Source: Pseudomonas saudimassiliensis
GTDB taxonomy: Bacteria; Pseudomonadota; Gammaproteobacteria; Pseudomonadales; Pseudomonadaceae
Length of the DNA: 64,000 bases
Direction: 5' to 3'
NCBI RefSeq assembly: GCF_000939975.1
Contig: NZ_LK391969.1
Coordinates: 1,313,412-1,377,411, forward strand
Under the pieces are notes generated by a model. That model saw only the letters and a list, made by a program, of their open reading frames with translations, was not told where the DNA came from and ran no database searches. Positions 10,447 through 35,700 of the stretch are shown piece after piece (positions within the stretch are counted from its first letter, which is position 1; each line of letters starts with the position of its first letter). The position numbers and the translations under genes were made by a program.

Positions 10447-10575
10447 CCGCAGCGCTGCGGCCTCCGCTATAAACATCGGTACTGTCCCGCCATTCGCCAC
10501 GGCAAGCTTGCTGCTTTTGCCGCCGAACCGCTCTACTCTGACCTGCCACCAACAAGAACAAGGCAGGTGTCGATC

Positions 10576-12267
10576 ATGCACGAGCGTGACTATCTGGAGC
10601 AGCTCCGCGCCCTGCAGCGCCAGGCCTGGCCCGCCGGCCACCCAACCGATCCCCAGTACCCGCTCGGCCAGCGACCGCTGACCGAGTATCTGCGTCATTG
10701 GGCTACCACGACGCCGGATAAGCCGGCCGTGCGCTTCTACGGTCACGACCTGAGCTACGCCGAGCTGAACGAGCTCAGCGATCGCTTTGCAGCGCTGCTG
10801 TTGGACCAGGGCGTGCAAGCCGGGGACCGCATTGCCGTGTTCCTGCCCAACTGCCCGCAGCTGCACATCGTCTTCTACGGCATCCTCAAGGCCGGTGCGG
10901 TTCATGCGCCGGTCAGCCCCATGGCCACCGCGACCGAGCTGGCCTACCAGCTCAAGGATTGCGGCGCCAGCGTCATGGTCTGTTTCGACCAGTTGTTGCC
11001 GGTGGTCCGGGCTGCCTCTGACCAGACCGCCCTGCGCGTGCTGATCAGTACCAGCCTGGCGGAGGTCTGCCCGGCCGAGCCGCCCTTCGCCGTACCGGAG
11101 CTGCTGCAAGCACCCAAGCTGGATGTCTCGGACAGCATCGACCTGCTGCCGGCCCTGGCCGCCACCGAACCCCGCCCGGACCTGCCCCCACCAGCGCTCG
11201 ACGCCATGGCGGCGCTGAACTACACCGGCGGCACCACCGGCCTGCCCAAGGGCTGCATCCACACCCATGGCGACATGCTCTACACCTGCGCGAGTTTCAT
11301 GCCCGCCGCGCTGGGCCTGGATAGCGAGCGGGTCAGCCTCAACTTCATGCCCGAATTCTGGATTGCCGGGGAGAACGCCGGCCTGCTGTTCCCGGTGTTC
11401 GGCGGCACCACCCTGGTGCTGCTAGCGCGCTGGGACGCGCTGGCGTTCATGGGCGCCGTGCAGCACTACCGGGTCAATCACACCGGGTTGCTGGTGGACA
11501 GCGCTGCGGAGATTTTAGATCACGCCCAGCGCGACAGCTTCGACCTCAGCTCGCTGCAGGTCACCAGTTGTGTGTCCTTCATCAAGAAGCTGACCCCGGA
11601 ATACCGCCGCCGCTGGCGTGAGCTGACCGGCTGCACCCTGTTCGAGACCAGCTTCGGCATGACCGAAACCCATACCTGCGACACCTTTACCGCCGGTCTG
11701 CAGAACGACGACTTCGATCTGAAATCCGCGCCCACCTTCGTCGGGCTGCCGGTACCGGGCACCGAGTTCAAGGTCTGCGACTTCGACACCGGCGCGCTGC
11801 TGCCGCTAGGTAGTGAAGGCGAGCTCTGCGTGCGCTCGCCGTCGCTGCTCAAGGGCTACTGGAACCGTCCGCAAGCCAGCGCCGAGGCCCTGCGCGACGG
11901 CTGGCTGCACACCGGCGACAACGGCGTGATCACCGAGCAGGGCTTTATTCGCTACCTCGGACGGCGCAAGGAGATGCTCAAGGTCAACGGCATGAGCGTA
12001 TTCCCCGCCGAACTGGAAGCCATGCTCGGCCAGCATCCAGACCTGCTCGCCTCGGCGGTCGTCGGCCGGCCCGATGCGCAGCGTGGCGAAGTCCCGGTCG
12101 CCTTCGTGATTGCCAAACCGGGCAGCGGGCTGGACGCCGAGCAGTTGACCGCGTGGTGCCGGCAGGCCATGTCCGGGTACAAGGTGCCGGAGGTGCGGCT
12201 GGTCGAATCCCTGCCGATGACCGCTACTGGCAAGGTAAAGAAGAACGAACTCAAGGACTGGATCTGA
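10576..12267 (+). CDS. Acyl-CoA synthetase, class I adenylate-forming (AMP-binding)
   Basis: Activates a carboxylic acid with ATP and CoA through an acyl-adenylate; the substrate cannot be told from sequence. The 563-residue protein has the P-loop-like YTGGTTGLPKGCIHTH, the FGMTETHTCDTF motif (A5), the HTGDNGVI motif, the hinge LGRRKEMLKVNG and the catalytic lysine near the end (TATGKVKKNEL). The ATG at 10576 is preferred over a GTG at 10567 because AAGGCAGGTG lies upstream of it. Its stop overlaps the next start (TGATG), so it is translationally coupled to a biotin-dependent carboxylase. That suggests a two-step route: acid to acyl-CoA, then carboxylation. This pairing is inference. Confidence 0.9.
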   Translation: MHERDYLEQLRALQRQAWPAGHPTDPQYPLGQRPLTEYLRHWATTTPDKPAVRFYGHDLSYAELNELSDRFAALLLDQGVQAGDRIAVFLPNCPQLHIVFYGILKAGAVHAPVSPMATATELAYQLKDCGASVMVCFDQLLPVVRAASDQTALRVLISTSLAEVCPAEPPFAVPELLQAPKLDVSDSIDLLPALAATEPRPDLPPPALDAMAALNYTGGTTGLPKGCIHTHGDMLYTCASFMPAALGLDSERVSLNFMPEFWIAGENAGLLFPVFGGTTLVLLARWDALAFMGAVQHYRVNHTGLLVDSAAEILDHAQRDSFDLSSLQVTSCVSFIKKLTPEYRRRWRELTGCTLFETSFGMTETHTCDTFTAGLQNDDFDLKSAPTFVGLPVPGTEFKVCDFDTGALLPLGSEGELCVRSPSLLKGYWNRPQASAEALRDGWLHTGDNGVITEQGFIRYLGRRKEMLKVNGMSVFPAELEAMLGQHPDLLASAVVGRPDAQRGEVPVAFVIAKPGSGLDAEQLTAWCRQAMSGYKVPEVRLVESLPMTATGKVKKNELKDWI

Positions 12268-14198
12268 TGCCCTTCAAACGTCTGCTGATTGCCAACCGTG
12301 GCGAAATTGCCATCCGCCTGGCCCGGGCCGCCGCCGAGCTGGATATCCCCAGCCTGGCGGTCTATTCCGAGGATGATGCCGAGTCCCTGCACCGGCACCG
12401 GGCCGATGCCGCCGCGCCCCTGCAGGGCCGTGGCGCGGCGGCTTATCTGGACATTTCCCAATTGCTCGCCCTGGCCCGGGAACATGGCTGCGATGCCATC
12501 CACCCCGGCTACGGCTTTCTCAGCGAGAGCGCCGAACTCGCCCGGGCCTGCGAGGCCGCCGGTATCACCTTCATTGGCCCGACTGCCAGTGTGTTGGAGC
12601 TGTTCGGCGACAAGGCCCGGGCGCGGCAACTGGCCCAGCGTGAGGGCGTCCCCGTGGTCCAGGGCACCGACCAGGCAACCGGACCGGAACAGGCCAGGGC
12701 CTTCATGGCCGAGCTGCCCGCCGGCACGCCGGTGATGCTCAAGGCGCTGGCCGGCGGCGGTGGCCGGGGCATGCGGGTGGTGCACGACGCGGCTGAGCTG
12801 GAGCAGGCTTTCGCTCGCTGCAGCTCGGAAGCCACAGCGGCCTTCGGCAATGGCGATCTGTATATCGAGCGGCTGATTCCCCGCGCCCGGCATATCGAGG
12901 TGCAGATCATCGGCGACGGCCAGCAGGTCAGTCACCTGTGGGAGCGCGAATGCACCCTGCAGCGCCGCCATCAGAAGGTGCTGGAGGTCGCGCCCGCACC
13001 GGGCCTGGATCCCGACCTGCGCCGTCAACTGCTGGACGCTGCCTGCACCCTGACTGCCGCCGTTGGCTATCGAGGCTTGTGCACTGTCGAATTCCTGCTG
13101 GACGAGGAGCGCGGCGACTTCGTATTCATGGAGGCCAACCCCCGCATCCAGGTCGAGCATACGGTCACCGAGGCGGTCACCGGGCTGGATCTGGCGCAGC
13201 TGCAGATCCGCGTGGCCGCTGGCGCCAGCCTCGCCGAGCTGGGCGTGGCGCAATCCAGCGTCCCGTCTCCGCGGGGCTTCGCCGTGCAACTACGGATCAA
13301 CCTGGAAGCCATGCAGCCCGACGGCAGCGCGCGCCCCAGCGGCGGCACCCTGGGCGCCTACGAGGCGCCGAGCGGCCATGGCGTGCGAGTCGATGGCTAC
13401 GGCTACAGCGGCTACACCACCAACCCCGGCTTCGACTCGTTGCTGGCCAAGCTGATCGTGCATGCCGATGCGGATTATCCCGCCGTACTGCGCCGGGCCT
13501 ACCGGGCGCTATGTGAATTTCGCCTGGAAGGCGTCACCAGCAACCTGCCCTTCCTGCAGAACCTGCTGCAGCATCCCGAGGTACAGGCCAATCGGGTTAC
13601 CACTGGTTTTATCGAGGCCAATGCCGCCGGCCTGCTGGGCACCAATAGCCAGCCCCACCCGCACCTGTATGCGCGCGGCCATGCCAGCCGGCAGCAACAG
13701 GCCCACAGCGAGCAGAGCGCCCCCGCTGGTAGCCAACCGGTGAATACGCCGGTGCAGGGCGTGCTGGTCAGCCTGGATGTGCAGCCGGGCGACAGCGTAG
13801 CGGCAGGGCAGCAGATTGCCGTCATGGAAGCCATGAAGATGGAGTTCGTGGTCAAGGCCGACTGCAGCGGGATCGTCCGCGCGTTAGCGGCCGCTGCGGG
13901 GGATAACCTGTTCGAAGGCAGCCCACTGCTGTTTATCGAGGCCACCGGTGAGGGCGACCTTGAACAGCTCACCGAAGAGCAGGTCGACCTGGCGCATATC
14001 CGCGCCGACCTGCAGGAAGTGCTCGACCGCCAGGCGCAGCTTACCGACGCCCAGCGCCCCGACGCCGCCGCCGCAGGACCGGCCAGCGCACCGCCCGGGA
14101 GAATCTCGCCGAGCTGCTGGATGAGGGCAGCTTCATGGAATATGGCGGCTTCGCCCTGGCCGCCCAGCGCACCCGCCGCAGCCACGAGGAGCTGTTGA
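12267..14198 (+). CDS. Biotin carboxylase + BCCP part of an acyl-CoA carboxylase (frame broken at 3' end)
   Basis: Begins MPFKRLLIANRGEIAIR, a classical biotin carboxylase start. It shows the ATP-grasp glycine-rich loop (LAGGGGRGMRVV), the catalytic EANPRIQVEH and RIQVEHTVTE region, and the biotin carboxylase C-terminal domain. A biotinyl domain follows with the lysine motif MEAMKME near residue 527. Homology should run on into a carboxyltransferase, but after about 14072 this frame turns into non-homologous sequence ending at 14198, while the expected motif TGQRTARENLAELL is in the other forward frame. A one-base loss in the GCC-rich run at 14061-14075 would explain it. The intact fusion would be about 1,092 residues, the size I recall for single-chain carboxylases in pseudomonads. 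Confidence 0.88.
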   Translation: MPFKRLLIANRGEIAIRLARAAAELDIPSLAVYSEDDAESLHRHRADAAAPLQGRGAAAYLDISQLLALAREHGCDAIHPGYGFLSESAELARACEAAGITFIGPTASVLELFGDKARARQLAQREGVPVVQGTDQATGPEQARAFMAELPAGTPVMLKALAGGGGRGMRVVHDAAELEQAFARCSSEATAAFGNGDLYIERLIPRARHIEVQIIGDGQQVSHLWERECTLQRRHQKVLEVAPAPGLDPDLRRQLLDAACTLTAAVGYRGLCTVEFLLDEERGDFVFMEANPRIQVEHTVTEAVTGLDLAQLQIRVAAGASLAELGVAQSSVPSPRGFAVQLRINLEAMQPDGSARPSGGTLGAYEAPSGHGVRVDGYGYSGYTTNPGFDSLLAKLIVHADADYPAVLRRAYRALCEFRLEGVTSNLPFLQNLLQHPEVQANRVTTGFIEANAAGLLGTNSQPHPHLYARGHASRQQQAHSEQSAPAGSQPVNTPVQGVLVSLDVQPGDSVAAGQQIAVMEAMKMEFVVKADCSGIVRALAAAAGDNLFEGSPLLFIEATGEGDLEQLTEEQVDLAHIRADLQEVLDRQAQLTDAQRPDAAAAGPASAPPGRISPSCWMRAASWNMAASPWPPSAPAAATRSC

Positions 14199-15544
14199 AG
14201 ATGAGCCCGGCCGATGGCCTGATCGCCGGCATCGGCACGGTCAATGCCGAGCTATTCGGTGCCGAGGCCGCCCGCTGCATGGCCATGAGTTACGACTACA
14301 CGGTATTTGCCGGCACCCAGGGGGTGATGAATCACAAGAAGACCGACCGCATGCTGGAGCTGGCCGAGCAATGGCGACTGCCGCTGGTGTTCTTCACCGA
14401 AGGCGGCGGTGGCCGGCCCGGGGATGTGGACAAGGTCGGCGTCGCGGGGCTGGACTGTACCACCTTCATGCGCATGGCCCGCCTCAGCGGGCAGGTGCCC
14501 TTGGTCGGCGTGGTGTCCGGGCGCTGCTTTGCCGGCAACGCCGCCCTGCTCGGCTGCTGTGATGTGATCATCGCCACGGAAAATGCCACCATTGGCATGG
14601 CCGGGCCGGCGATGATCGAAGGCGGCGGGCTGGGCAGCTACACACCCGAGGAGGTTGGTCCGACCCACATGCAGGCGCCCAACGGAGTGATTGATGTGCT
14701 GGTCGAAGACGAAGCCGAAGCCACCCGTATAGCCAAACAGTACCTCTCCTATTTCCAGGGCGACCTGCCAGGCGGCGAGTGTGCCGACCAGCGCCGGCTG
14801 CGCCACCTGATCCCGGAAAACCGCCTGCGGGTTTACGACATCCGCGAGGTAATCGAGACGCTGGCTGATACCGACTCGGTGCTGGAGCTGCGCCGGCAGT
14901 TTGCCCCGGGCATGATCACCGCGCTGATCCGCATCGGCGGCAAGCCCTTCGGGCTGATTGCCAACAACCCCATGCACCTGGGCGGCGCCATCGATGCCGC
15001 TGGCGGTGACAAGGCCGCGCGCTTCATGCAGCTATGCCAGGCCCATGGCCTGCCCATGGTGTCGCTTTGCGATACCCCCGGCTTCATGGTCGGGCCGGAA
15101 TCGGAACAGCAGGCCACCGTGCGCCACGTCTCGCGCATGTTTGTCACCGCCGCCAGCCTGAGTATTCCATTTTTTACCGTGGTGCTGCGCAAGGGCTACG
15201 GCCTCGGCGCCCAGGCCATGGCCGCCGGCAGCTTCCACGCGCCGCTGTTCACCATCGGCTGGCCCAGCAGCGAGTTCGGTGCCATGGGACTGGAGGGCGC
15301 AGTCCGGCTCGGGTTTGCCAAGGAGCTGGCGGCGCTGGAAGATCCCGCCGAGCAGCAGGCCCTGTTCGACCGGCTGGTGGGTGAGCTGTATGCGCGGGGC
15401 AAGGGCCTGAGCATGGCCAGCTTCCTGGAAATCGACGCGGTCATCGATCCGCTGGAAACCCGGAACTGGCTGCTGCGCGGGCTCAACTCCGCCCCGCCGG
15501 AGTCCCTGCAGGCCGGTCAGCGGCCGTTTGTGGATACCTGGTAA
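14135..15544 (+). CDS. Carboxyltransferase part of the same acyl-CoA carboxylase
   Basis: Crotonase-fold carboxyltransferase, both halves present: N-terminal half with FTEGGGGRPGDVDK and MAGPAMIEGGGLG, C-terminal half with the LCDTPGFMVGPESE acyl-CoA/biotin pocket motif and GYGLGAQAMAAGSF. The first usable start in this frame is the ATG at 14135 inside the conserved EGSFMEYGG. However, the conserved TGQRTARENLAELLDEG is encoded in the same frame immediately upstream (from about 14075), so this is not a natural N-terminus. The coding signal therefore crosses from the biotin carboxylase frame into this one. The acyl-CoA substrate is unknown. If the shift is real, biotin carboxylase and carboxyltransferase would be separate polypeptides, or the second would not be made. 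Confidence 0.88.
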   Translation: MEYGGFALAAQRTRRSHEELLKMSPADGLIAGIGTVNAELFGAEAARCMAMSYDYTVFAGTQGVMNHKKTDRMLELAEQWRLPLVFFTEGGGGRPGDVDKVGVAGLDCTTFMRMARLSGQVPLVGVVSGRCFAGNAALLGCCDVIIATENATIGMAGPAMIEGGGLGSYTPEEVGPTHMQAPNGVIDVLVEDEAEATRIAKQYLSYFQGDLPGGECADQRRLRHLIPENRLRVYDIREVIETLADTDSVLELRRQFAPGMITALIRIGGKPFGLIANNPMHLGGAIDAAGGDKAARFMQLCQAHGLPMVSLCDTPGFMVGPESEQQATVRHVSRMFVTAASLSIPFFTVVLRKGYGLGAQAMAAGSFHAPLFTIGWPSSEFGAMGLEGAVRLGFAKELAALEDPAEQQALFDRLVGELYARGKGLSMASFLEIDAVIDPLETRNWLLRGLNSAPPESLQAGQRPFVDTW

Positions 15545-15584: not shown

Positions 15585-17216
15585 TCAATCGCTAATTCGC
15601 AGGCGTTGCAGGCGCTCGGCATGGATAGCCTGGTGACTGGCAATTACCAGCAAGCCATGGCGCTGGCGCCGCACCAGCGCCGCCATGACCTGTTCCCGGG
15701 TAACCGCATCCAGGCCGGCAAAGGGTTCGTCGAGCAGCAGGATCGGACGCTCGGCCAGCAGGAGCCTGGCCAGTGCAATCCGCCGCGCCTGCCCGCCGGA
15801 TACGGCCGAACCCACCTCGCCAGGCAGTAGTTGCAACTGCTGCGGGTGCGCCCGGACCCAGTCCGCCAGCGCTACCTCCTGCAACACCTGCCACAATTGC
15901 TCATCGCTGGCCTGCAGGTTGCCCAGACGCAGATTGGCCGCCAGCGGCAGGTTGAAGATGTCGATATCCTGGGGCAGATAACCGATGGTTTTGTGCAGAT
16001 CCCAGTGCGCCAGGGGCTGGCCATTGAGATGACATTCGCCACTGAAGGGTAGCGGCTCACCCGCCAGCAGCTGCAGGAGCGTGGATTTGCCGCCCCCGGA
16101 GGCTCCCTGCAGGTGCAGCACTGCGCCTTGCTCCAACTGCAGGTTGATCCGCTCCGGCCCATTCAGCGCACCGGGCCAGCGAACGGTGAGCTCCTGCATC
16201 TGCAGTCGCCAGGGGCCTGCAGGCTGAGGCCGCGGCGGTGGCGGCGGTGGCGGGTCGCCGGCCAGGACATTGAGCCGATCCCGCGCCGCCTGGCTCAGGC
16301 CCAGCGCGACAAAACTCCCGGCAAGCGGCAACAGCGCTTCACTCAGGCCCAGCAAGGTCAGCACCACTGCCAGCAACATGGGCACCGATAGCCCCGTTTC
16401 AGTCAGTAACGGCCAGCCGTGCCATAGTACTGCCATCAGGCTGCCGGCCAATGCCCACTGCTGCAACAGCGCAATGCGGCTGCCCAATCGCAGCTGCCGG
16501 TCCTGCTGGGCAAGCTGGGCGCGGTCCTGCCGGGCAAATGCGGCACTGCGCTCGCCCCAGCGCTGCCAGATCAACAAGGGCGTCAGCAATGCCAGGCTGT
16601 CGAGCAAGTATTCCCGTCGCAGCTCTGCCCGCTCCACTTCCTCCCGCGCCAACCGCCCGCCCCGCCAATAACCGAGCCAGGGCGATAGCCAGGCCAGCAG
16701 CAGGCCGGGCAGTGCCGCCAGCAACAGGGTCTGGTCGAGCAATGCCAACCAGACCAGCAGCATGACCAGCAGCAGGCTGGCCCAGGCCCAGGGCAACACC
16801 ACGCGCAGCGGAAACTGATCCAGCAGATCGATATCCGCCACCAGCCGATGCATGGCGCCCGGCGTGCGCAACGGCAGACGCCGCGCCTGAGAGACTTGCC
16901 GGAACAGGCGGCTGCGTAGATCGAGCAGCAGGCCCAGCGCGGCATGGTGCGATGTCAGCCGCTCGGTATAGCGCCCGACGGTGCGGGTCAGCGCCAGCAG
17001 GCGGATAACGGCAGCCGGACGAAAAATGTCAAAGGCTGCACCAGCAAGCGTCAGGCCAGCCAGGGCCGCAGCGCTGATAAACCAGCCGGAAACCGCCAAC
17101 AGCGCAACGGCTGAAAACAGCGTGATGAAACCCAGCACACCCGCGCCCCACCAACCGCCCAGACGGCTGTTGAGCAAACTGCGCAGGCGAACCACTGGCC
17201 GGCGCGGTTCAGTCAT
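15585..17216 (-). CDS. cydC: Thiol exporter ABC transporter CydC
   Basis: Second subunit of the heterodimeric CydDC exporter that sends glutathione/cysteine to the periplasm and is needed for cytochrome bd assembly. The 543-residue half-transporter has an N-terminal transmembrane domain (six segments, e.g. VLGFITLFSAVALLAVSGW) and an ATPase domain with Walker A GASGGGKSTLL, signature VSGGQARRIALA and Walker B ILLLDEPFAGLD. Its start overlaps the cydD end by 8 bp. It is the last gene of cydABDC and converges on the carboxylase gene with a 40-bp gap. Confidence 0.94.
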   Translation of the reverse strand: MTEPRRPVVRLRSLLNSRLGGWWGAGVLGFITLFSAVALLAVSGWFISAAALAGLTLAGAAFDIFRPAAVIRLLALTRTVGRYTERLTSHHAALGLLLDLRSRLFRQVSQARRLPLRTPGAMHRLVADIDLLDQFPLRVVLPWAWASLLLVMLLVWLALLDQTLLLAALPGLLLAWLSPWLGYWRGGRLAREEVERAELRREYLLDSLALLTPLLIWQRWGERSAAFARQDRAQLAQQDRQLRLGSRIALLQQWALAGSLMAVLWHGWPLLTETGLSVPMLLAVVLTLLGLSEALLPLAGSFVALGLSQAARDRLNVLAGDPPPPPPPRPQPAGPWRLQMQELTVRWPGALNGPERINLQLEQGAVLHLQGASGGGKSTLLQLLAGEPLPFSGECHLNGQPLAHWDLHKTIGYLPQDIDIFNLPLAANLRLGNLQASDEQLWQVLQEVALADWVRAHPQQLQLLPGEVGSAVSGGQARRIALARLLLAERPILLLDEPFAGLDAVTREQVMAALVRRQRHGLLVIASHQAIHAERLQRLRISD

Positions 17217-18909
17217 GCCCGCCCCCTCGCAGCGTCACTTGCCGGTCCAGCCAGTCAAGCCCAACCGCATCATGGCTGACCAGCACTACCGTACGACCGC
17301 GGCTGAGCCGCTCCAGCAACTCGCCGATCCGTTCAGCGGTGTCGGGGTCCAGATGCGCCAAGGGCTCATCGAGAAGCCAGACCCGGGTGTCACGCAATAG
17401 CAAGCGAGCCAGGGCCAGACGGCTGAGTTGGCCGCCGGACAGCCCCAGCCCCCGCTCCCCCAACGGCGTTGCCAATTGCAGGGGCAACTGCTGCAGCAAC
17501 GGCCACAGGCCGACTTCACGCAATACCGCAACCAGTTGCTGGTCGCTGGCATCCGGCGCGGCCAGGCGCAAATTCTCCGCGAGCGTACCTGGTACAAGCT
17601 CTGGTTGCTGAGCAAGAAATCCCACATGCCGATGCCAGTCGCCACGTCGCACCGAGGCCAACGGCAGCCCATTGATCAATACCTCGCCAGTGTGGGGCAG
17701 AAAGCCCAGCAGGACATATAACAGGGTCGATTTGCCACTGCCGCTGGGCCCTCGCAACCAGACCCGCTCGCCAGCGCGCAGAGCCAGGTCCAGCGGGCCC
17801 AGGCGCGCCGGTGCCCCGGGCAGATCGACCTGCACCTGGCAGCAGGTTATGGCCGGCGCCCCAGGCAGCTGCAACGGTTCTGTGCCGGGATGCTGCCACA
17901 GCTCCAGCTGCAGCAATGGCTTCAGTTCTGCGAGCGCACCCTCGGCCTCGGCCCGGGCGTGATAATCGCTACCCAGTTGCCGCAGCGGCCCGTAGAACTC
18001 CGGGGCATGCAGCAGAATGAACAGGGCACTCTGATAGGAAACAGGCACTTCGCCCTGGGCCCAAGGCAGCATACCCAGCAGGCCCAGGCCGAGATAAAGG
18101 GCAACCATGGCAATGGCTATCGAGGCAAACAGTTCCAACACCGCGCCGGAAAGAAAAGCCATGCGCAGCACACGCATGGTGCGGCTGCGGTAATCCTCGG
18201 CGGCTTGCTCTACCGCCAGCTGCGCACTATCCAGCGTCTGCAGATGTTGCAAGGTTGCCATGCCGCGCAATAAGTCCAGGAAGCGTCCACTCATCTGCTC
18301 CAGCGCCATGAATTGACGCTGGTTGGCACTTGCCGCGGCGTGCCCCAGCAGCACCATGAACAGCGGCACCAACGGCGCGGTGGCCAGCAGCAAGGCTGCG
18401 GCGAACAGACTGTGCCACGCGGTGGCCAGCAGCAGCATCAGCGGGACGATGATGACCAGCCGGCGCTGCACGTGGTAACGGCTCACATAGCCATCCAGCG
18501 CATCCACCTGCTCCAGCACGCGGCTACCCAGCTCGGCATCAGCTCCCAGCATACGCCGCGCCGGCCCCAGCATTGCCAGCCGTTGCAGCAACTGCTCGCG
18601 CAGTGTCTGGCGGACCCGCATGCTGGCTCGCTGGGCCAGGCGTTCGCGGCAATATTGCAGGGCCGGCCGAATCAGGAGACACAATGGCAGGCCCACCAGC
18701 CAGATCCCCCAATCGGCTGGAGCGAAGCTCGTCGGGCTGCCCTCCTGCCAGGCGACCAACCAATAGCCAAACAGGCCCGCCAGGAACCAGCTGCGCAAAA
18801 TCAGCAGCCCAGCGGCCAGCACCTCGAGGACAAGGGCCCCGTTCAGCAGTCGCTTCTGGGGCACCAGCAGCCAGGGCAACCCGGCATCGGCGTCTTTACG
18901 GGCCGTCAT
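17209..18909 (-). CDS. cydD: Thiol exporter ABC transporter CydD
   Basis: Partner of CydC. The 566-residue protein has six predicted membrane segments and an ATPase domain with Walker A GPSGSGKSTLL, signature LSGGQLSRLALA and Walker B VWLLDEPLAHLD. It starts 13 bp after cydB and overlaps cydC, so the four genes are very likely one transcript. The exporter supplies reductant and haem conditions needed for the bd oxidase encoded upstream (established for CydDC in E. coli). Confidence 0.94.
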   Translation of the reverse strand: MTARKDADAGLPWLLVPQKRLLNGALVLEVLAAGLLILRSWFLAGLFGYWLVAWQEGSPTSFAPADWGIWLVGLPLCLLIRPALQYCRERLAQRASMRVRQTLREQLLQRLAMLGPARRMLGADAELGSRVLEQVDALDGYVSRYHVQRRLVIIVPLMLLLATAWHSLFAAALLLATAPLVPLFMVLLGHAAASANQRQFMALEQMSGRFLDLLRGMATLQHLQTLDSAQLAVEQAAEDYRSRTMRVLRMAFLSGAVLELFASIAIAMVALYLGLGLLGMLPWAQGEVPVSYQSALFILLHAPEFYGPLRQLGSDYHARAEAEGALAELKPLLQLELWQHPGTEPLQLPGAPAITCCQVQVDLPGAPARLGPLDLALRAGERVWLRGPSGSGKSTLLYVLLGFLPHTGEVLINGLPLASVRRGDWHRHVGFLAQQPELVPGTLAENLRLAAPDASDQQLVAVLREVGLWPLLQQLPLQLATPLGERGLGLSGGQLSRLALARLLLRDTRVWLLDEPLAHLDPDTAERIGELLERLSRGRTVVLVSHDAVGLDWLDRQVTLRGGGHD

Positions 18910-18922
18910 CTCGCCAACACGA

Positions 18923-19924
18923 TCAATGATAACCCTCGCCCACCCGCACCTTGCCGCGGAAGACCCAGTAGGTCCAGGCGGTATAGGCCAGGATCACCGG
19001 AATCACGAACAGCATGCCGATCAGCAGAAACAGCTGCGAGCCCGGCGCGGCAGCCGCATCCCACAGGGTGTGATCAGGCGGCACCACATAGGGCCACTTG
19101 GTGAACAGCAGGCCGAGATAGGTGAAGATGAACATGCCCATGGTGGCGACAAAGGGCATGGATTGCTGGTGGCGGCGCAGCCCGCGTATCACCAGGAAGG
19201 CGAACAGCAGCGCCAGTGCCGGGAACACCCAGATCAACCGGATGACACTGAACCAGCGCTCGAAGGCCGAGGGGTCCACTGTCGGCGTCCAGAGGCTGAC
19301 GATGGCAAATACCCCCAGCACCGCGGCCAGCAGCCATGGCGCCAGGCGATACACCCACTGCTGGATATGGCCGACGGTCTTCATGATCAGCCAGGTGCTG
19401 CCCAGCAGCGCGTAGCCCGCTACCAGGCCCAGCCCGGTCAACACAGTGAACGGCGTCAGCCAATCCAGCGCGCCGCCCACGTAGCGTCCATCCACGGTAT
19501 TGAAGCCTTCGATGTAAGCACCCACCACCGCCCCCTGGGCAAAGGTCGCCACCATGGAGCCGCCGGCGAAGGCCCAGTTCCACAGGTTGCGCGAGGAACT
19601 GGACTTGAAACGGAACTCGAAGGCGACACCGCGGAAGATCAACCCTGCCAGCATCAGGAACACACCGATATACAGCGCCGGCATCAATACCGAATAGACC
19701 AGCGGAAAGGCTGCCAGCAACCCGGCGCCGCCCAGGATCAACCAGGTTTCGTTGCCGTCCCATACCGGCGCCACCGAGTTCATCATCACGTCCCGCGCAT
19801 CCTCGTCGGGCGCGAAGGGAAAGAGGATGCCCACGCCCAGGTCGAAGCCGTCCATCAGCACGTACATCATGATGGCGAAGGCGATGATCACCGCCCAGAT
19901 GATGGTCAGATCAATGCCATGCAT
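18923..19924 (-). CDS. cydB: Cytochrome bd-type quinol oxidase subunit II
   Basis: Membrane subunit of the terminal quinol oxidase. The start at 19924 (MHGIDLTIIWAVIIAFAIMM) has a GGGGGA ribosome site; a longer frame to 19954 overlaps cydA without one. The 333-residue product has about eight or nine hydrophobic segments and the early motif MDGFDLGVGILFPF and WDGNETWLI that typify CydB/CioB. It begins one base past the cydA stop. There is no room for a cydX-type small subunit between cydB and cydD (13 bp). Confidence 0.95.
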   Translation of the reverse strand: MHGIDLTIIWAVIIAFAIMMYVLMDGFDLGVGILFPFAPDEDARDVMMNSVAPVWDGNETWLILGGAGLLAAFPLVYSVLMPALYIGVFLMLAGLIFRGVAFEFRFKSSSSRNLWNWAFAGGSMVATFAQGAVVGAYIEGFNTVDGRYVGGALDWLTPFTVLTGLGLVAGYALLGSTWLIMKTVGHIQQWVYRLAPWLLAAVLGVFAIVSLWTPTVDPSAFERWFSVIRLIWVFPALALLFAFLVIRGLRRHQQSMPFVATMGMFIFTYLGLLFTKWPYVVPPDHTLWDAAAAPGSQLFLLIGMLFVIPVILAYTAWTYWVFRGKVRVGEGYH

Positions 19925-19925
19925 T

Positions 19926-21326
19926 TCAGTGTCCCCCTTCTTCGATGCTGACATGGGCCGCCGACAGCGGCCGTTTCGGACGGTCGATATCGTGCGTCTC
20001 GTCGTCGTGGTCGATACTCTCCAGCCCGGCGCGCAGCACCATCATCAGGTAGTACAATCCCGCGCTGAAGATCATTCCATAGACGACGATGTAGCCCAGC
20101 AGGGTGAAGAGCACCATGCCGCCGGTCAGCGACGGGGTCACCCCCTCCGTGTGGCTCATCTGACCGTACACCACCCAGGGGAAGCGCCCTACTTCGGTCA
20201 CTACCCAGCCGCACAGCACTGCGGCGAAGGGTGCGAAGGTCATCAGCCGCATGGCATTGAGAAACAGCGGCTGGCGCCAGTAGCGCCCACCGGCGCGCAG
20301 GAACAGGCCGGCCAGCGCGCAGCCAATCATCAACAGGCCGATGCCGACCATGATGCGGAACGCCCAGAACACTATCCATACCGGCGGCCGCTCCTCTGGG
20401 GCCACTTCCTTGAGGCCCGGCACTTCGCCGTTCAAGTCGTGGGTCAGGATCAGGCTACCCAGCTTGGGTATGCCTATCTCGAAGTGGTTGGTCTCCGCTT
20501 CCTGGTCCGGAATGGCAAACAGCAGCAGCGGCATGCCGTTCATGGTTTCCCAGTTGCCCTCGATCGCCGCCACCTTGGTCGGTTGATGTTCCAGGGTATT
20601 GAGGCCGTGGTAATCGCCCACCACCGCCTGGGTCGGCGCCAGGATCAGGATCAGCCATAGACACATCGACAGCGCCCGGCGGTTGGTTTCCACTTCCCGC
20701 CCGGTCAACAGATACCAGGAGCTGACCCCAGCCACCACGAAGGAGCCGGTCAGGAAAGACGCCAGCACCATATGGGCGAAACGGTAGGGGAACGAGGGGT
20801 TGAAGATGGCTTCGCGCCAGCTGCCTACAGTGAACACGCCATCCACGAATTCGGTGCCGACCGGCGTATGCATCCAGCTATTGGCGGCGAGAATCCAGAA
20901 TGTTGAGATCAGCGTGCCCAGCGCCACCATGCAGGCCGCAAAAAGATGCACGCCCGGCGGTACGCGGTTGCGCCCGAACAGCAGCACACCCAGGAACGCT
21001 GCCTCGAGGAAGAACGCCGTGACCACTTCGTAACTGAGCATCGGCCCGATGAAATTGGCCGCGGCGTAGGAGAAGTTGCTCCAGTTGGTGCCGAACTGGA
21101 ACGACATCACGATGCCGGACACCACCCCCATGGCAAAGGCCACCGCAAATACCTGGATCCAGAAGCGCGACAACCGCGTCCACAGCGGGTTGCCGGTCTT
21201 GAATGCCAGGGCTTCGAGAAAGGCAATGAAGGTCGCCAGGCCGATGGTAAACACGGGAAAAATGGCATGGAAGCAGACGACGAACGCAAATTGCAGGCGA
21301 GATAGCAGCAGCGGATCGAGTTCCAT
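19926..21326 (-). CDS. cydA: Cytochrome bd-type quinol oxidase subunit I (CIO-like, short Q-loop)
   Basis: Haem-bearing subunit that oxidises quinol and reduces oxygen to water. The 466-residue length and short loop after the GDYHGLNTLEHQPTK motif fit the cyanide-insensitive (short Q-loop) branch. Conserved residues include the haem ligand region LQFAFVVCFHAIFP and GTNW. The C-terminal signature, usually written GRQPW, reads GRFPW here (DNA checked near 20160-20200). Upstream (21327-21570) I see no clear ANR/FNR box; an imperfect dyad TTCCCTGTGACAGGAA lies at 21452-21467. The gene heads cydABDC and is divergent from the Tsx-like gene. Confidence 0.94.
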   Translation of the reverse strand: MELDPLLLSRLQFAFVVCFHAIFPVFTIGLATFIAFLEALAFKTGNPLWTRLSRFWIQVFAVAFAMGVVSGIVMSFQFGTNWSNFSYAAANFIGPMLSYEVVTAFFLEAAFLGVLLFGRNRVPPGVHLFAACMVALGTLISTFWILAANSWMHTPVGTEFVDGVFTVGSWREAIFNPSFPYRFAHMVLASFLTGSFVVAGVSSWYLLTGREVETNRRALSMCLWLILILAPTQAVVGDYHGLNTLEHQPTKVAAIEGNWETMNGMPLLLFAIPDQEAETNHFEIGIPKLGSLILTHDLNGEVPGLKEVAPEERPPVWIVFWAFRIMVGIGLLMIGCALAGLFLRAGGRYWRQPLFLNAMRLMTFAPFAAVLCGWVVTEVGRFPWVVYGQMSHTEGVTPSLTGGMVLFTLLGYIVVYGMIFSAGLYYLMMVLRAGLESIDHDDETHDIDRPKRPLSAAHVSIEEGGH

Positions 21327-30245: not shown

Positions 30246-30737
30246 TCACAGGTGATAGATGTCGATCACCTGGTTGATGTAGTCGTTGTTCAGAATGGCC
30301 TTCTTGTTGGTGATCACCGGCTGTTCACCGGTGATATCCAGCGTGTAGAAGGCGGTGCCGAAGAACATCTGGGTGGTGTGGTAGCGATGGCTGTTGGTCT
30401 GCCAGTTGAAGCGCAGCTTCACCTGACTCTCGTCCCGCTCCAGGATCTCCAGATTGGTGCGCAGGTGGGTGGTGCGCGGCTCGGGCATGGAAGTGGCACC
30501 GGAGCGCTCGGTCTTGATCCGGTAGACGCGATCCTCCAAGCCCTTGCGGTTGGCGTAGTAGATCAGCGACAGCTCGGTCTGCGGATCCTCGGTAAGGGTG
30601 TCCTCGTCATCCCAGCAGGGCATCCAGTACACCGCTTCCTCGTGGTAGCAGGTCAGCCACTCGTCCCACTGACGGTCGTCCAGCAACCGCGCTTCGCGAT
30701 TGATGAACGCCTGGATCTGTTCGAAGGTCATGCTCAT
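30246..30737 (-). CDS. benB: Benzoate 1,2-dioxygenase small (beta) subunit
   Basis: Structural beta subunit of the ring-hydroxylating oxygenase; 163 residues with the SnoaL-like cone fold, recognisable by [18 protein letters not shown] and the ending [10 protein letters not shown]. Its ATG overlaps the benA stop (ATGA), as expected for subunits made in equal amounts. Confidence 0.95.
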
Positions 30738-32110
30738 GCCAGCGACTCCTGTGCAGTGAGGGCGACGAAGCGGGCGCGCTCGGTCTCGACCGCACGCAGC
30801 ATTTCCGCGACCCAGTGTTCGTGGTGGGTGACATACAGGCCTTCGTCTTCAGGCTTGAGGCCACTGAGTGTCGGCTTCAGATCGATACGCTGGGCGCCCT
30901 CATCGGCCCCTTCGATCCAATGCGCGGCGCCGCGGCTCATGTCGTTCCACTTCAAGCCTTCGGCGTTATAGCCCTGCTGGCAGGCGCGGAATTCTTCCAG
31001 GTCGTCCGGCGTACCCATGCCGCTGACGTTGAAGAAGTCTTCGTACTGGCGGATGCGCTTGGTGCGCTCCTCCGCCGGCTCGTTCTTCGGTGCCCAGCAG
31101 TAGATGGTGATCTCGGTCTTGTCCACGGAGATCGGGCGCAACACGCGGATCTGGGTGGAGAACTGGTCCATCAGGTACAGGTTGGGATAGACGCACAGGT
31201 TCTTGGTGGTGTTGACGATGGCATCGGCCCGCGCCTCGCCGACCTTCTCCTGCAGCCGCGCAAGGTGCTTGTATACCGGCCGCACCTGGGGGTTGGTCAG
31301 GCGGGTCCAGAGCATCATGTGGCCGTTCTCGAAGGCATAGAAACCGCCGTCGCTGGACCAGCTCTTGGCGTCCACGGCCTCGGTGCCGCCCTTTTCGTAA
31401 TCGCGCTGGCCCATGGTCGACAGGTAGTTCCAGTGCACCGTGCCCACGTGGTAGCCATCGGCGCCGTTTTCCGCGGTCAGCTTCCAGTTGCCTTCATAGG
31501 TGTAGGTCGAGGTGCCACGCAATACTTCCAGGCCGTCTTCGGCCTGATCGACGATGTTGTCGATGATCTTGGTGGTCTCGCCCAGGTATTCCTGCAGCGG
31601 CAGCACGTCTGCATTCAAGCTGCCGAACAGGAAGCCGCGGTAGTTCTCGAACCGCGCCAGGCGCTTGAGATCGTGGGAGCCATCGGTATTGAAGCTCTCC
31701 GGGTAGCCGCCCTTCTTCTGGTCACGGGCCTTGAGCAGCTTGCCATCGTTCTTGAAGGTCCAGCCGTGGAACGGGCAGGTGAACGAGCTCTTGTTGCCGC
31801 GCTTCTTGCGGCACAGGGTAGCGCCGCGGTGCGAACAGGTATTGAGCAGCCCCTGCAGCTCGCCTTCCTTGGTGCGGGTGATGACCACCGGCTGGCGACC
31901 CAGGGTCAGGGTGAAATAGTCACCGGGGTTTTCCACCTGGCTTTCATGGCCGAGAAAGACCCAGTTGCCCTCGAAGATGTATTTCATCTCCAGGTCGAAC
32001 AATTGCTGATCGGTAAAGATGCTGCGATCGCAACGGTAGTTACCGCTGGCCGGATCTGCTTCCACCGCGCCGCGAATTTTCTTCTCGAGTTGGTCGAGTT
32101 GCCGAGTCAT
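30734..32110 (-). CDS. benA: Benzoate 1,2-dioxygenase large (alpha) subunit
   Basis: Catalytic subunit that adds both atoms of O2 to benzoate. The Rieske cluster motif is clear (CSHRGATLC then CPFHGW), and the mononuclear iron ligands lie in [12 protein letters not shown] with the later Asp. I start it at the ATG at 32110 ([11 protein letters not shown]) because AAGGAG is 8 bases upstream; the in-frame ATG at 32116 is only 2 bases from it. It follows catA after about 105 bp, so ben may be read from the cat promoter, its own promoter, or both. Confidence 0.96.
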
Positions 32111-32163
32111 GTGCATAACTCCTTCTTGTTAGGTGATCACCGACGCGGGTACAGCCACCCGCA

Positions 32164-32183
32164 CCAGCCCGGTATCGGGCTGG
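32164..32183. other. Stem-loop between catA and benA
   Basis: A perfect 8-bp stem (CCAGCCCG / CGGGCTGG) with a GTAT loop sits midway between the catA stop and benA start. No T-run follows on the minus strand, so it is not a standard terminator. It could stabilise the catBCA transcript end or lower read-through into ben. Function is inference. Confidence 0.45.
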
Positions 32184-32215
32184 CGGGGTCCTGCGTACTG
32201 GTGAAGCGGGGTGGT

Positions 32216-33160
32216 TCAGGCGACGACTGCGTCTTCCAGGGCGCGCTTGCGCTCATGGCGGGCTTGCAGCTCGGCCTTGTCGGTAGAAACCAGCTGGAAG
32301 TCGAAGACCACCTCCGTGATCGGACCGGTCACACCGTGCTGCTCGCCGATGGCGGAGTGTTCGACCGGGCGGGCTTCGACCACCAGCTCATCGCGGGTCG
32401 CGAAGGCGAAATCGTCGTAGGTGAACTGGTCACCGGCCAGGTTGATCTGGGTGGTCAGGTGCTTGTGACCCGGCGCGGAGATGAAGAAATGGATATGCGC
32501 CGGACGCTGGCCATGGCGACCCAGCAGGTTCAGCAGCGCCTGGGTCGAACCCTCGGGCGGGCAGCCGTAGCCGGACGGAATGATCGAGCGGGCGACATAG
32601 CGACCGTTTTCATCGGTCTTGATCCGACGACGCAGGTTGAAATCGCTCTGCGACTTGTCGAAGTAGGAATAGTTGCCCTTGGAGTCGGCATGCCAGACAT
32701 CGACGATGGCATTGGCCAGGGGCTTGCCGTCTTCGTCGGTGACCTGGCCGGTCAGCAGCATGGCCTCGCCGGTCTCGTCGGTACCGTCGTCCATCCGCGC
32801 AAAGCCCTCGGCCAGCGGCGCGCCAGCAACGTACAGCGGGCCTTCGATGGTGCGCGGCGTGCCGCCAGCCAGACCGGCGGCCTCGTCCTGGGCGTCCATG
32901 CGGATATCGAGATACTTGTCCATGCCCAGCCCCGGGGCCAGCAGGGAAGCTTCCCCGTTCTTGCCCAGTTCGCCGACGTAATAGACCGCGGACCAGAATT
33001 CTTCGGGGGTGACGTCGAAGTCTTCAATCAGCTGGAAGACATCGCTCATGAACCGGTGAACGATCTTCTTGACCCGCTCATTGCCCGCTTCCACATGGAA
33101 GCCAGCTACTTTTTCCAGCAATTCACGAACATCGGCAGTGTGGGTAGTTTTGACTGACAT
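32216..33160 (-). CDS. catA: Catechol 1,2-dioxygenase
   Basis: Intradiol ring cleavage of catechol to cis,cis-muconate with non-haem Fe(III). The 314-residue protein has the N-terminal helical linker domain and the catalytic domain with the four iron ligands: Tyr in GNYSYFD, Tyr in SGYGCPP, and both His in RPAHIHFF. It follows catC in the same direction, the classical catBCA order, and is preceded by an ordinary ribosome site. Confidence 0.97.
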   Translation of the reverse strand: MSVKTTHTADVRELLEKVAGFHVEAGNERVKKIVHRFMSDVFQLIEDFDVTPEEFWSAVYYVGELGKNGEASLLAPGLGMDKYLDIRMDAQDEAAGLAGGTPRTIEGPLYVAGAPLAEGFARMDDGTDETGEAMLLTGQVTDEDGKPLANAIVDVWHADSKGNYSYFDKSQSDFNLRRRIKTDENGRYVARSIIPSGYGCPPEGSTQALLNLLGRHGQRPAHIHFFISAPGHKHLTTQINLAGDQFTYDDFAFATRDELVVEARPVEHSAIGEQHGVTGPITEVVFDFQLVSTDKAELQARHERKRALEDAVVA

Positions 33161-33269
33161 GGTTGTGCTTCCTCATCTATTTTTCTTATCGCCCAATCAT
33201 CGTGCAAAAGGCGGCAATGTTATCGACGGCGCTGCCTTGCCTGGGTGGCGCCTGGTGTACAGCGGTCTA

Positions 33270-33560
33270 TCAGCGGTCGTCCTCGTGGATCGAGGAGGGG
33301 TGACGGCACAGCGGCGCCACGGTGATATCCATGTAGGGGAACAGCGGCAGGTTGCTGATCAGCTCCTGCAGCTCCGCGTTGTCCTGCACGTCGAAGATAC
33401 TGACGTTGGCGTAGCTGCCAGCTACCCGCCACAGGTGGCGCCATTTGCCCTGGCGCTGCAGCTCGTGGGAATACGCCTTCTCCCGCGCCTTGATCTCATT
33501 GGCCACATCTGCCGGCAGATCGTGGGGAATGTTGACCTTCATTTCGACTTTGAACAGCAT
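33270..33560 (-). CDS. catC: Muconolactone delta-isomerase
   Basis: Converts muconolactone to 3-oxoadipate enol-lactone; a small decameric ferredoxin-like enzyme. The real start is the ATG at 33560 (MLFKVEMKVNIPHDLP), with GAGGAA upstream; the longer frame to 33683 runs into catB and is not real. The 96-residue length is normal, and the motif KWRHLWRVAG plus the ending around PLFPYMDI fit the family. Confidence 0.96.
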   Translation of the reverse strand: MLFKVEMKVNIPHDLPADVANEIKAREKAYSHELQRQGKWRHLWRVAGSYANVSIFDVQDNAELQELISNLPLFPYMDITVAPLCRHPSSIHEDDR

Positions 33561-33573
33561 GTTCGCTTCCTCG

Positions 33574-34692
33574 TTACTTGCGGCGGTATTCAGCCAGCTT
33601 GGCTTCATCGATCTCGACGCCCAGGCCGGGACCGCGGGGCAGATCCACACCGTTGTCATGGAAGTGCAACGGTTGAACCACAATGTCGTCTTTCATCAGC
33701 AGCGGACCGAACATCTCGCTGCCCCAGTGCAGGGTTTCCAGGGTGGACCAGGCATGCAGCGAGGCCGCAGTGCCGATGGTGCCTTCCAGCAGGGTGCCGC
33801 CGTACAGGCCGATGCCCGCTGCCTTGGCGACCGCGGCCTGCTCCAGCGCGCGCAGCGGACCACCGGCCTTGGCAATCTTCATCGCCACTGCACCGCTGAA
33901 CCCTTCGGCGGCCAGCTTGTACATGTCGGTGGCGTCGGCCACGGCCTCGTCAGCCAGGATCGGGATATGGAATTTGGCCGACAGCCGGGCCAGGGCGGCG
34001 TAATCCTTCATGGGGATGGGCTGCTCGACCAGATCGATACCGGCTGCCTGCAGCTCGGCCATCCCCCTGGCGGCGGTAGCCTCGTCCCATGCCTGGTTCA
34101 CATCCACCCGCACACTGGCCTGTTCGCCGACGGCGGCCTTGATGGCGGCCACGTGGCGCACATCGTCCATCACCGGGCGCGAGCCGATCTTCAGCTTGAA
34201 GTCACAGTGGCGCTTGGCGGCCATCAGGGTTTTCGCTTCGTCGATGTCCTTGGCGGTATCCCCGCTGGCCAGGGTCCAGAGCACCGGGATGTGCTGGTGC
34301 ACGGCGCCGCCGAGCAGGTCGGACAAGGGACGGTTCATGCGCTTGCCGTAGAGATCCAGCAACGCCGTCTCGATGGCTGACTTGGCCAGATTGTTGCCGC
34401 GGCTCGACCGATCCAGCATTACCCTGAGGGTATTGATGTTGTCGGCCGGCTGGTTCAACAACTGTGGCTTGAAATAGGTGTCGATGGTAAGTTTGACGCT
34501 CTCGGGACTCTCCGGGCCGTAAGCCAGGCCGCCGATGGTAGTCGCTTCGCCCAGCCCCTCGAGACCCTCGGAATCCTTGAGACGCACGATTACCATGGTC
34601 TGCACGCCCATAGTGGTCATCGACAGCTTGTGCGGCCGGATGGTCGGGATATCGACCAGGATGGCTTCTATGGACTGAATGGTGGCTGACAT
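33574..34692 (-). CDS. catB: Muconate cycloisomerase
   Basis: Enolase-superfamily enzyme that closes cis,cis-muconate to muconolactone with Mn2+. The 372-residue protein shows the catalytic KLKIG lysines, metal ligands in RVDVNQAWD, EQP and ADEAV, and the second base lysine in MKIAKAGG. It heads the operon, 13 bp ahead of catC, and is divergent from the LysR gene that controls it. Confidence 0.97.
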   Translation of the reverse strand: MSATIQSIEAILVDIPTIRPHKLSMTTMGVQTMVIVRLKDSEGLEGLGEATTIGGLAYGPESPESVKLTIDTYFKPQLLNQPADNINTLRVMLDRSSRGNNLAKSAIETALLDLYGKRMNRPLSDLLGGAVHQHIPVLWTLASGDTAKDIDEAKTLMAAKRHCDFKLKIGSRPVMDDVRHVAAIKAAVGEQASVRVDVNQAWDEATAARGMAELQAAGIDLVEQPIPMKDYAALARLSAKFHIPILADEAVADATDMYKLAAEGFSGAVAMKIAKAGGPLRALEQAAVAKAAGIGLYGGTLLEGTIGTAASLHAWSTLETLHWGSEMFGPLLMKDDIVVQPLHFHDNGVDLPRGPGLGVEIDEAKLAEYRRK

Positions 34693-34797: not shown

Positions 34798-35700
34798 ATG
34801 GAGCTCAGACACCTGCGTTATTTCGTCGCAGTCGCGGAACAACGCAATTTCACCCGTGCGGCAGAAAAACTCTTCATCGCCCAGCCGCCCCTGACCCGGG
34901 CCATCAAGCAGCTGGAAGAAGAGATCGGTGTGGAGCTGTTCATTCGCAAGGCCCGGGGCCTGGAGCTGACCTCCGGGGGCAGCTACTTTCTCGCCCACGC
35001 CCAGCAGATCCTCGACAAGGTCGAGGCCACCATCGCCGATACCCGGCGCATCGCCTCCCATCGCAAGACCATTTTTTCCATCGGCTTCGTGCCCTCGGTG
35101 TTCTACGGCCAGCTACCCTTGATGGTGCGCCGGCTGCGGCAGAACAAGAACCTGGAAATCGTGCTGCATGAGCTCAAGACTCGGGAGCAGGTCGAGGCGC
35201 TGAAGTCGGGCAAGATCGATATCGGCTTTGGCCGCATACGCATCGAAGACCCGGAAGTGGACCAGGAAAAGCTGTTCGACGAGCCGCTGATCGCCGCCCT
35301 GCCCGTTGCCCACCCGCTGACCGCCGCGCCCCCCACCATGAAAGAGCTGGCGGATATGAACATGATCGTCTTCCCCTCCGGAGCGGGGCCCAACTTCTCC
35401 GACCTGGTGCATGGGCTGTTCCGGCGCCGCGGCCTCAAGGTCAATGTGATCCAGCAGGTCAACGATCTGCAGACGGCGCTATCGCTGGTGGCCTCCGACA
35501 TGGGCTTTACCCTGGTGCCGGAGCAGGTTCGGCGGCTGCAACGGGAGGACGTGGAGTACGTGCCACTGGCCGATAGCGGCATCACCGTGCCGGTGCTGGC
35601 CTCCCGCCGCCACGGCGAAAACCCGAACGCCATCATGCGCCTGACCAACACTATTCTGGCGGAGCTGGTGGAAAACCGGATTGCCGGTCGCTACCCATGA
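34798..35700 (+). CDS. catR: LysR-type regulator of catechol/benzoate degradation (CatR/BenM/CatM type)
   Basis: The 300-residue protein has the LysR winged-helix start MELRHLRYFVAVAEQRNFTRAAEKL and a periplasmic-binding-like effector domain with FVPSVFYGQLP, GKIDIGFGRI and the DMGFTLVPE region; these resemble CatM/BenM, which respond to muconate (and, for BenM, benzoate). Being the only regulator here, it may drive both cat and ben; no AraC-type benR is present. Whether it senses benzoate as well as muconate cannot be read from sequence. Confidence 0.88.
   Translation: MELRHLRYFVAVAEQRNFTRAAEKLFIAQPPLTRAIKQLEEEIGVELFIRKARGLELTSGGSYFLAHAQQILDKVEATIADTRRIASHRKTIFSIGFVPSVFYGQLPLMVRRLRQNKNLEIVLHELKTREQVEALKSGKIDIGFGRIRIEDPEVDQEKLFDEPLIAALPVAHPLTAAPPTMKELADMNMIVFPSGAGPNFSDLVHGLFRRRGLKVNVIQQVNDLQTALSLVASDMGFTLVPEQVRRLQREDVEYVPLADSGITVPVLASRRHGENPNAIMRLTNTILAELVENRIAGRYP

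Follow-up and report, generated by a model that had tools for sequence, protein, structure and literature searches.

A seven-nucleotide difference divides a predicted single-chain long-chain acyl-CoA carboxylase gene between two reading frames

Described carboxylases and the interrupted locus

In the two-subunit acyl-CoA carboxylases PCC, MCC and GCC, biotin carboxylase with BCCP (BC-BCCP) and carboxyltransferase (CT) are separate chains divided at the alpha/beta boundary, and the beta subunits carry the CT N-terminus. Other carboxylases hold all three domains on one chain. One of these, a long-chain acyl-CoA carboxylase (LCC), is available as PDB 4rcn, the accompanying paper reportedly being that of Tran et al. 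from 2015. Two solved chains labelled 'Carboxylase', 5h80 (494 aa) for BC and 5fif (566 aa) for CT, are presumably pieces of the single-chain carboxylase of Deinococcus radiodurans, and we take them to be constructs cut from an intact gene. Passages of PMC6491548 place single-chain LCCs in mycobacteria and Pseudomonas and describe activity on C2 to C16 acyl-CoAs, and one of them gives the domain order with CT at the N-terminus. Our literature search found no paper joining Halopseudomonas, pseudogene and frameshift, and a search on the Deinococcus single-chain carboxylase found no paper matching the full query.

We analyzed a stretch of 64,000 nt (the window; contig C1 1313412-1377411) from a genome of 3.34 Mb. 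In window positions, the features that matter here are the following.

10567..12267, plus strand: acyl-CoA synthetase (ligase), 566 aa from GTG 10567, ORF intact
12267..14198, plus strand: BC-BCCP ORF as assembled, ATG 12267, stop TGA 14196-14198, 643 aa
13827..13841, plus strand: EAMKM motif in the BCCP domain (Biotin_lipoyl match), intact and upstream of the break, biotinyl-lysine codon 13836-13838
13964..15544, plus strand: CT open frame, 526 aa with no stops up to the one at 15542-15544, Carboxyl_trans PF01039
14064..14072, plus strand: GCC/CCG triplet run that holds the 7-nt deletion, as compared with 36/36 same-genus relatives, exact placement ambiguous
14067..14195, plus strand: out-of-frame tail of the BC-BCCP ORF, about 43 residues, homology going on in the other frame
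14123..14137, plus strand: candidate CT start, ATG 14135-14137 with GAGG at 14123-14126, the only ATG, GTG or TTG before the conserved core

The BC-BCCP ORF, whose start is overlapped by the ligase stop, matches the Pfam domains Biotin_carb_N, CPSase_L_D2, Biotin_carb_C and Biotin_lipoyl, and EAMKM is presumably the biotinylation motif of the BCCP domain. The first-pass annotation had this frame losing homology near 14072, and we saw the loss at about 14064-14072. It had also described the conserved CT entry TGQRTARENL as being read one frame back; indeed, the CT frame, which follows an upstream TGA at 13961, is homologous from about 14073, reads TGQRTARENL from 14078 and runs on without interruption as far as the stop at 15542-15544. 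The BC, BCCP and CT domains thus lie on one strand and in that order across both frames, and a single well-defined break cuts the tri-domain gene. That a real tri-domain gene is interrupted here is more than chance. The upstream ligase had been called intact, which agrees with its 566 aa ORF and with its match to NF004822 (PRK06178) at 929 bits against a cut-off of 782. Judged by SD energies, the ligase ATG at 10576 has a better ribosome-binding site than GTG 10567.

The closest sequence matches to the two halves were 5h80 and 5fif, and 4rcn_A was the second-best structure match for each. Both halves align to this one chain, BC-BCCP residues 5-603 to residues 4-601 and CT residues 2-467 to residues 606-1071, an alignment that contradicts the CT-first order given in the passage of PMC6491548. 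By its sequence the window gene is of the single-chain LCC type, BC-BCCP-CT. It shares with 4rcn the domain order and the placement of both halves on one chain; unlike 4rcn, the window chain is split by the 7-nt deletion at the BCCP-CT linker, whereas its relatives are intact. In contrast to the 5fif and 5h80 constructs, here the genomic sequence itself is cut, which would take away conserved residues. The gene would resemble PCC, MCC and GCC if CT were made, but its sequence match to them is weaker than to the single-chain types. It also resembles recent frameshifted pseudogenes made by short repeat deletion in having one lesion, the rest intact and constrained, in one genome, and we saw no distinctive difference from these.

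A seven-nucleotide difference at the junction

A genus-wide DNA search found the locus in 37 of 37 genomes, and the 36 relatives used below are all of these but the window's own. The stretch at 14003-14137 is 135 nt long in the window, as against 142 nt in 36/36 same-genus relatives, every one of which reads BC-BCCP-CT in one frame across the junction, so that the difference is unique to the window among the genomes compared. Each of the five relatives with which the surrounding region was compared gave two tblastn pieces in two frames at the window's break. A single gap fitted best within 14064-14072, each of the 36 relatives allowing 2 to 9 placements of equal quality, the pattern that a short-repeat deletion would leave. 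A plasmid search gave no match.

Since seven is one modulo 3, the difference had looked like one base. The first-pass annotation had accordingly proposed a one-base shift, possibly a simple sequencing error in the GCC run, but we reject a one-base deletion there and find no support for a one-base error, because the relatives differ by 7 nt. As the deletion also removes two codons beyond the frame shift, the 1,092 residues calculated for the restored protein fall, by arithmetic, two residues short of the spacing in relatives.

We then considered a wider set of 116 loci, consisting of the 36 same-genus loci and of 80 named loci, the best 80 of at least 523 confirmed; some genomes occur twice, in both sets. 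In four loci (L008, L034, L085 and L111) a contig end removes most of the BC half, and L111 lacks a BC match. The spacing from RP to the TAREN-type motif was 10 residues in 116/116 loci and that from the biotin motif to RP was 76 residues in all 113 measurable loci, both counts including the best 80 of at least 523. This invariance in the loci examined makes the window the odd one out. The first-pass annotation had named as a refuting observation homologues present as two genes, with a real start near 14135. A split at the junction was found in none of the 116 loci (36 same-genus loci and the best 80 of at least 523), and we reject a natural two-gene arrangement on these counts.

Among the 71 named loci with at least 1.8 kb upstream, drawn from the best 80 of at least 523 (L032-L111), 25 have a PRK06178-type acyl-CoA synthetase within 400 bases upstream of the carboxylase, so that the synthetase-carboxylase pairing is not universal; in L060 the distance is 460 bases. 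Immediately downstream of the carboxylase and convergent with it, minus-strand genes at 15585-19954 resemble CydC, CydD and cytochrome bd subunit II by their translations. Further on, minus-strand genes at 30734-34692 read as BenA-, CatA- and CatB-like, of benzoate/catechol breakdown; each aligned in one piece in the five relatives compared, and a LysR-like gene lies beside them on the plus strand at 34798.

Constraint and age of the break

We wondered whether either half had begun to decay. The constraint alignment comprised the window and 35 relatives, with the truncated L008 left out. At otherwise invariant columns the CT half had no window-only change (0/329, the column total being derived from the counts of the other rows) and the BC-BCCP half had two (2/228, both L to V), while the same counts reached 9 in CT and 3 in BC-BCCP among the relatives. 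By such changes the window ranked 15th of 36 in CT and 4th of 36 in BC-BCCP, where it was tied with others at 2. Pairwise dN/dS between the window and its five nearest relatives was 0.052-0.074 for CT and 0.155-0.237 for BC-BCCP, as compared with 0.046-0.096 and 0.110-0.261 among these relatives themselves. The upstream ligase served as a control with five relatives: comparisons with the window gave 0.092-0.163, those between relatives 0.118-0.156. Neither column counts nor dN/dS revealed relaxed constraint in either half, a sign that only an older lesion would be expected to show. As both halves look fully constrained, the break may be very recent, it may be an artefact, or the two halves may still function separately; the constraint result fits each of these. 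The 0 and 2 window-only changes, together with dN/dS values within the relatives' range, point to a young event.

The CT halves of L124 (G031) and L123 (G020) had 9 and 7 changes at invariant columns, the next highest count being 3. Their CT frame is open, and the changes may reflect relaxed constraint, divergence or poor draft sequence.

Taken together, the gene is probably a single-chain LCC gene with a very recent 7-bp deletion in the GCC/CCG repeat of the BCCP-CT linker. A pseudogene made by slippage was among the possibilities raised at first; a recent slippage-type deletion indeed fits best, at a size of seven bases and not one. Slipped-strand mispairing in the short GCC/CCG repeat, a kind of site where small deletions of this type arise easily, would be its likely cause, and the deletion would then be present in the living strain.

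Competing explanations

An assembly or consensus error, with the gene intact in the strain and seven bases dropped from the G+C-rich triplet run, is possible but rather unlikely. It would agree with the lack of decay in either half and with a site in a low-complexity GCC/CCG run. The usual kind of sequencing error is a single-base indel, however, and seven bases would be an unusual size. Moreover, the assembly looks good, with 3 contigs, a main contig of 3,338,867 bases, completeness of 100 and contamination of 0.14. A two-step history, in which two codons were lost and a one-base error was added, may also lead to seven nucleotides, but the junction spacing is invariant in the loci examined (including the best 80 of at least 523).

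We surveyed 244 kb of the window's chromosome with reading frames taken from five relatives. These covered it unevenly: at least one relative matched 168,850 bases, two or more matched 111,230 and all five matched 30,032. The survey is thus a sample, and because its filter weighs each identity against the highest one in any frame, a genuine split confined to a distant relative may have been lost. A first pass with one relative (G005; 118 genes, 147.7 kb) gave six multi-frame cases, the carboxylase included. The filtered survey retained the carboxylase split in five relatives, its two antisense shadows and one more place in one relative, so that within the 244 kb no frame split other than the carboxylase break recurred in a second relative. 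That it is the sole genuine frame split found there may be held in favor of a local error, but the absence of any other in the survey (111 kb by at least two relatives, 30 kb by five) also means that the assembly is not generally frameshift-ridden, a possibility ruled out within the limits of the survey.

Several apparent splits dissolved on inspection. Those at window coordinates of about -119 kb and -97 kb read as 5' extensions of a stop-to-stop frame into a neighboring gene; those at about -90 kb, about -57 kb and 38.5-40.6 kb read as antisense frames across two genes, and the one at about -17 kb was a paralogue, as judged by two full-length matches. Apparent splits at 33.2-33.6 kb were antisense frames as well: each of the three larger minus-strand genes aligns as a single piece in 5/5 relatives, and a small ORF at 33270-33683 did not appear through the alignment filter. 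The place near -97 kb, more exactly about -96846 (C1 about 1216565, L148), had been flagged by a frame change after 34 residues in one relative, G005, and looks like a 5' extension and not like a genuine split.

Could the two halves work apart? Because two-subunit relatives have BC-BCCP and CT on separate chains, we kept a two-piece reading, in which BC-BCCP ends at 14198 and translational coupling re-initiates CT at ATG 14135 to give a newly split, functional carboxylase; we regard it as improbable. PCC, MCC and GCC are such two-subunit relatives (PMC4673880), and the break falls near their alpha/beta boundary. Both halves are constrained, separate CT (5fif) and BC (5h80) carboxylase chains have been solved, and ATG 14135 precedes the upstream ORF's stop by 61 bases. 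The GAGG eight bases upstream of this ATG pairs with the anti-SD at -6.1 kcal/mol, which is comparable to several presumed starts in the window, and 9.55% of 2,000 random window 20-mers bind as strongly. CTG codons stand just before the ATG, at 14114 and 14117. Against this reading, GAGG and ATG are conserved coding sequence: codon 14135 encodes Met in 29 of the 36 relatives, Ile in 6 and Lys in 1. A start at 14135 would also omit the conserved TGQRTARENLAELLDEGSF. When 26 sequences were aligned, the window among them, 10 of the 19 residues of this segment never varied and another 3 hardly did. The segment is present in the chains of 4rcn and 5fif, and it holds a helix predicted at model residues 6-13 in an AlphaFold model of the CT half (mean pLDDT 63, weak evidence). 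Unlike the beta subunits of PCC, MCC and GCC, a CT made from the internal ATG would omit the CT N-terminus, and a natural split occurs in 0/116 loci (including the best 80 of at least 523). That the deletion amounts to the fission of a fusion enzyme, having made a working two-piece LCC with CT from ATG 14135 that is now under selection, is more improbable still.

Programmed -1 ribosomal frameshifting, also raised by the first-pass annotation, or transcriptional slippage that joins both frames is hardly credible: the frames do overlap by about 230 bases (13964-14196) and the shift needed is -1, but this overlap holds no slippery heptamer of the form X XXY YYZ and no homopolymer longer than CCCC, re-pairing from GCC to CGC would by reasoning mismatch, and the gene lies in one frame in 36/36 relatives, so that there is no conserved frameshift signal. 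With the window's frame arrangement common to 0/36 same-genus relatives, we reject programmed frameshifting on sequence and on conservation.

Meaning for the strain and the family

Under the preferred reading of a very recent 7-bp deletion, the ribosome would make the BC-BCCP half followed by about 43 foreign residues and end at 14198. The CT half would be absent, or ATG 14135 would give traces of a CT half that lacks the conserved first helix. Judging from these frames, the strain is most likely without LCC enzyme activity. Counting the window gene, PF01039 matches the genome at four places and PF02785 at five. By length and position, the three other PF01039 places appear to be a two-subunit carboxylase (C1:2413725-2417404) and the AccA/AccD pair, and the remainder further biotin carboxylases. 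With these assignments no second LCC or stand-in enzyme is apparent in the genome.

By itself the break means little: it would be one more bacterial gene broken by a short repeat deletion, an ordinary lesion. It illustrates how what the eye takes for a '-1 frameshift' may be a deletion of seven bases, a size that speaks against both recoding and a simple sequencing error of one base. Were the two halves active, the locus would offer a natural test of a single-chain biotin carboxylase reverting to separate subunits.
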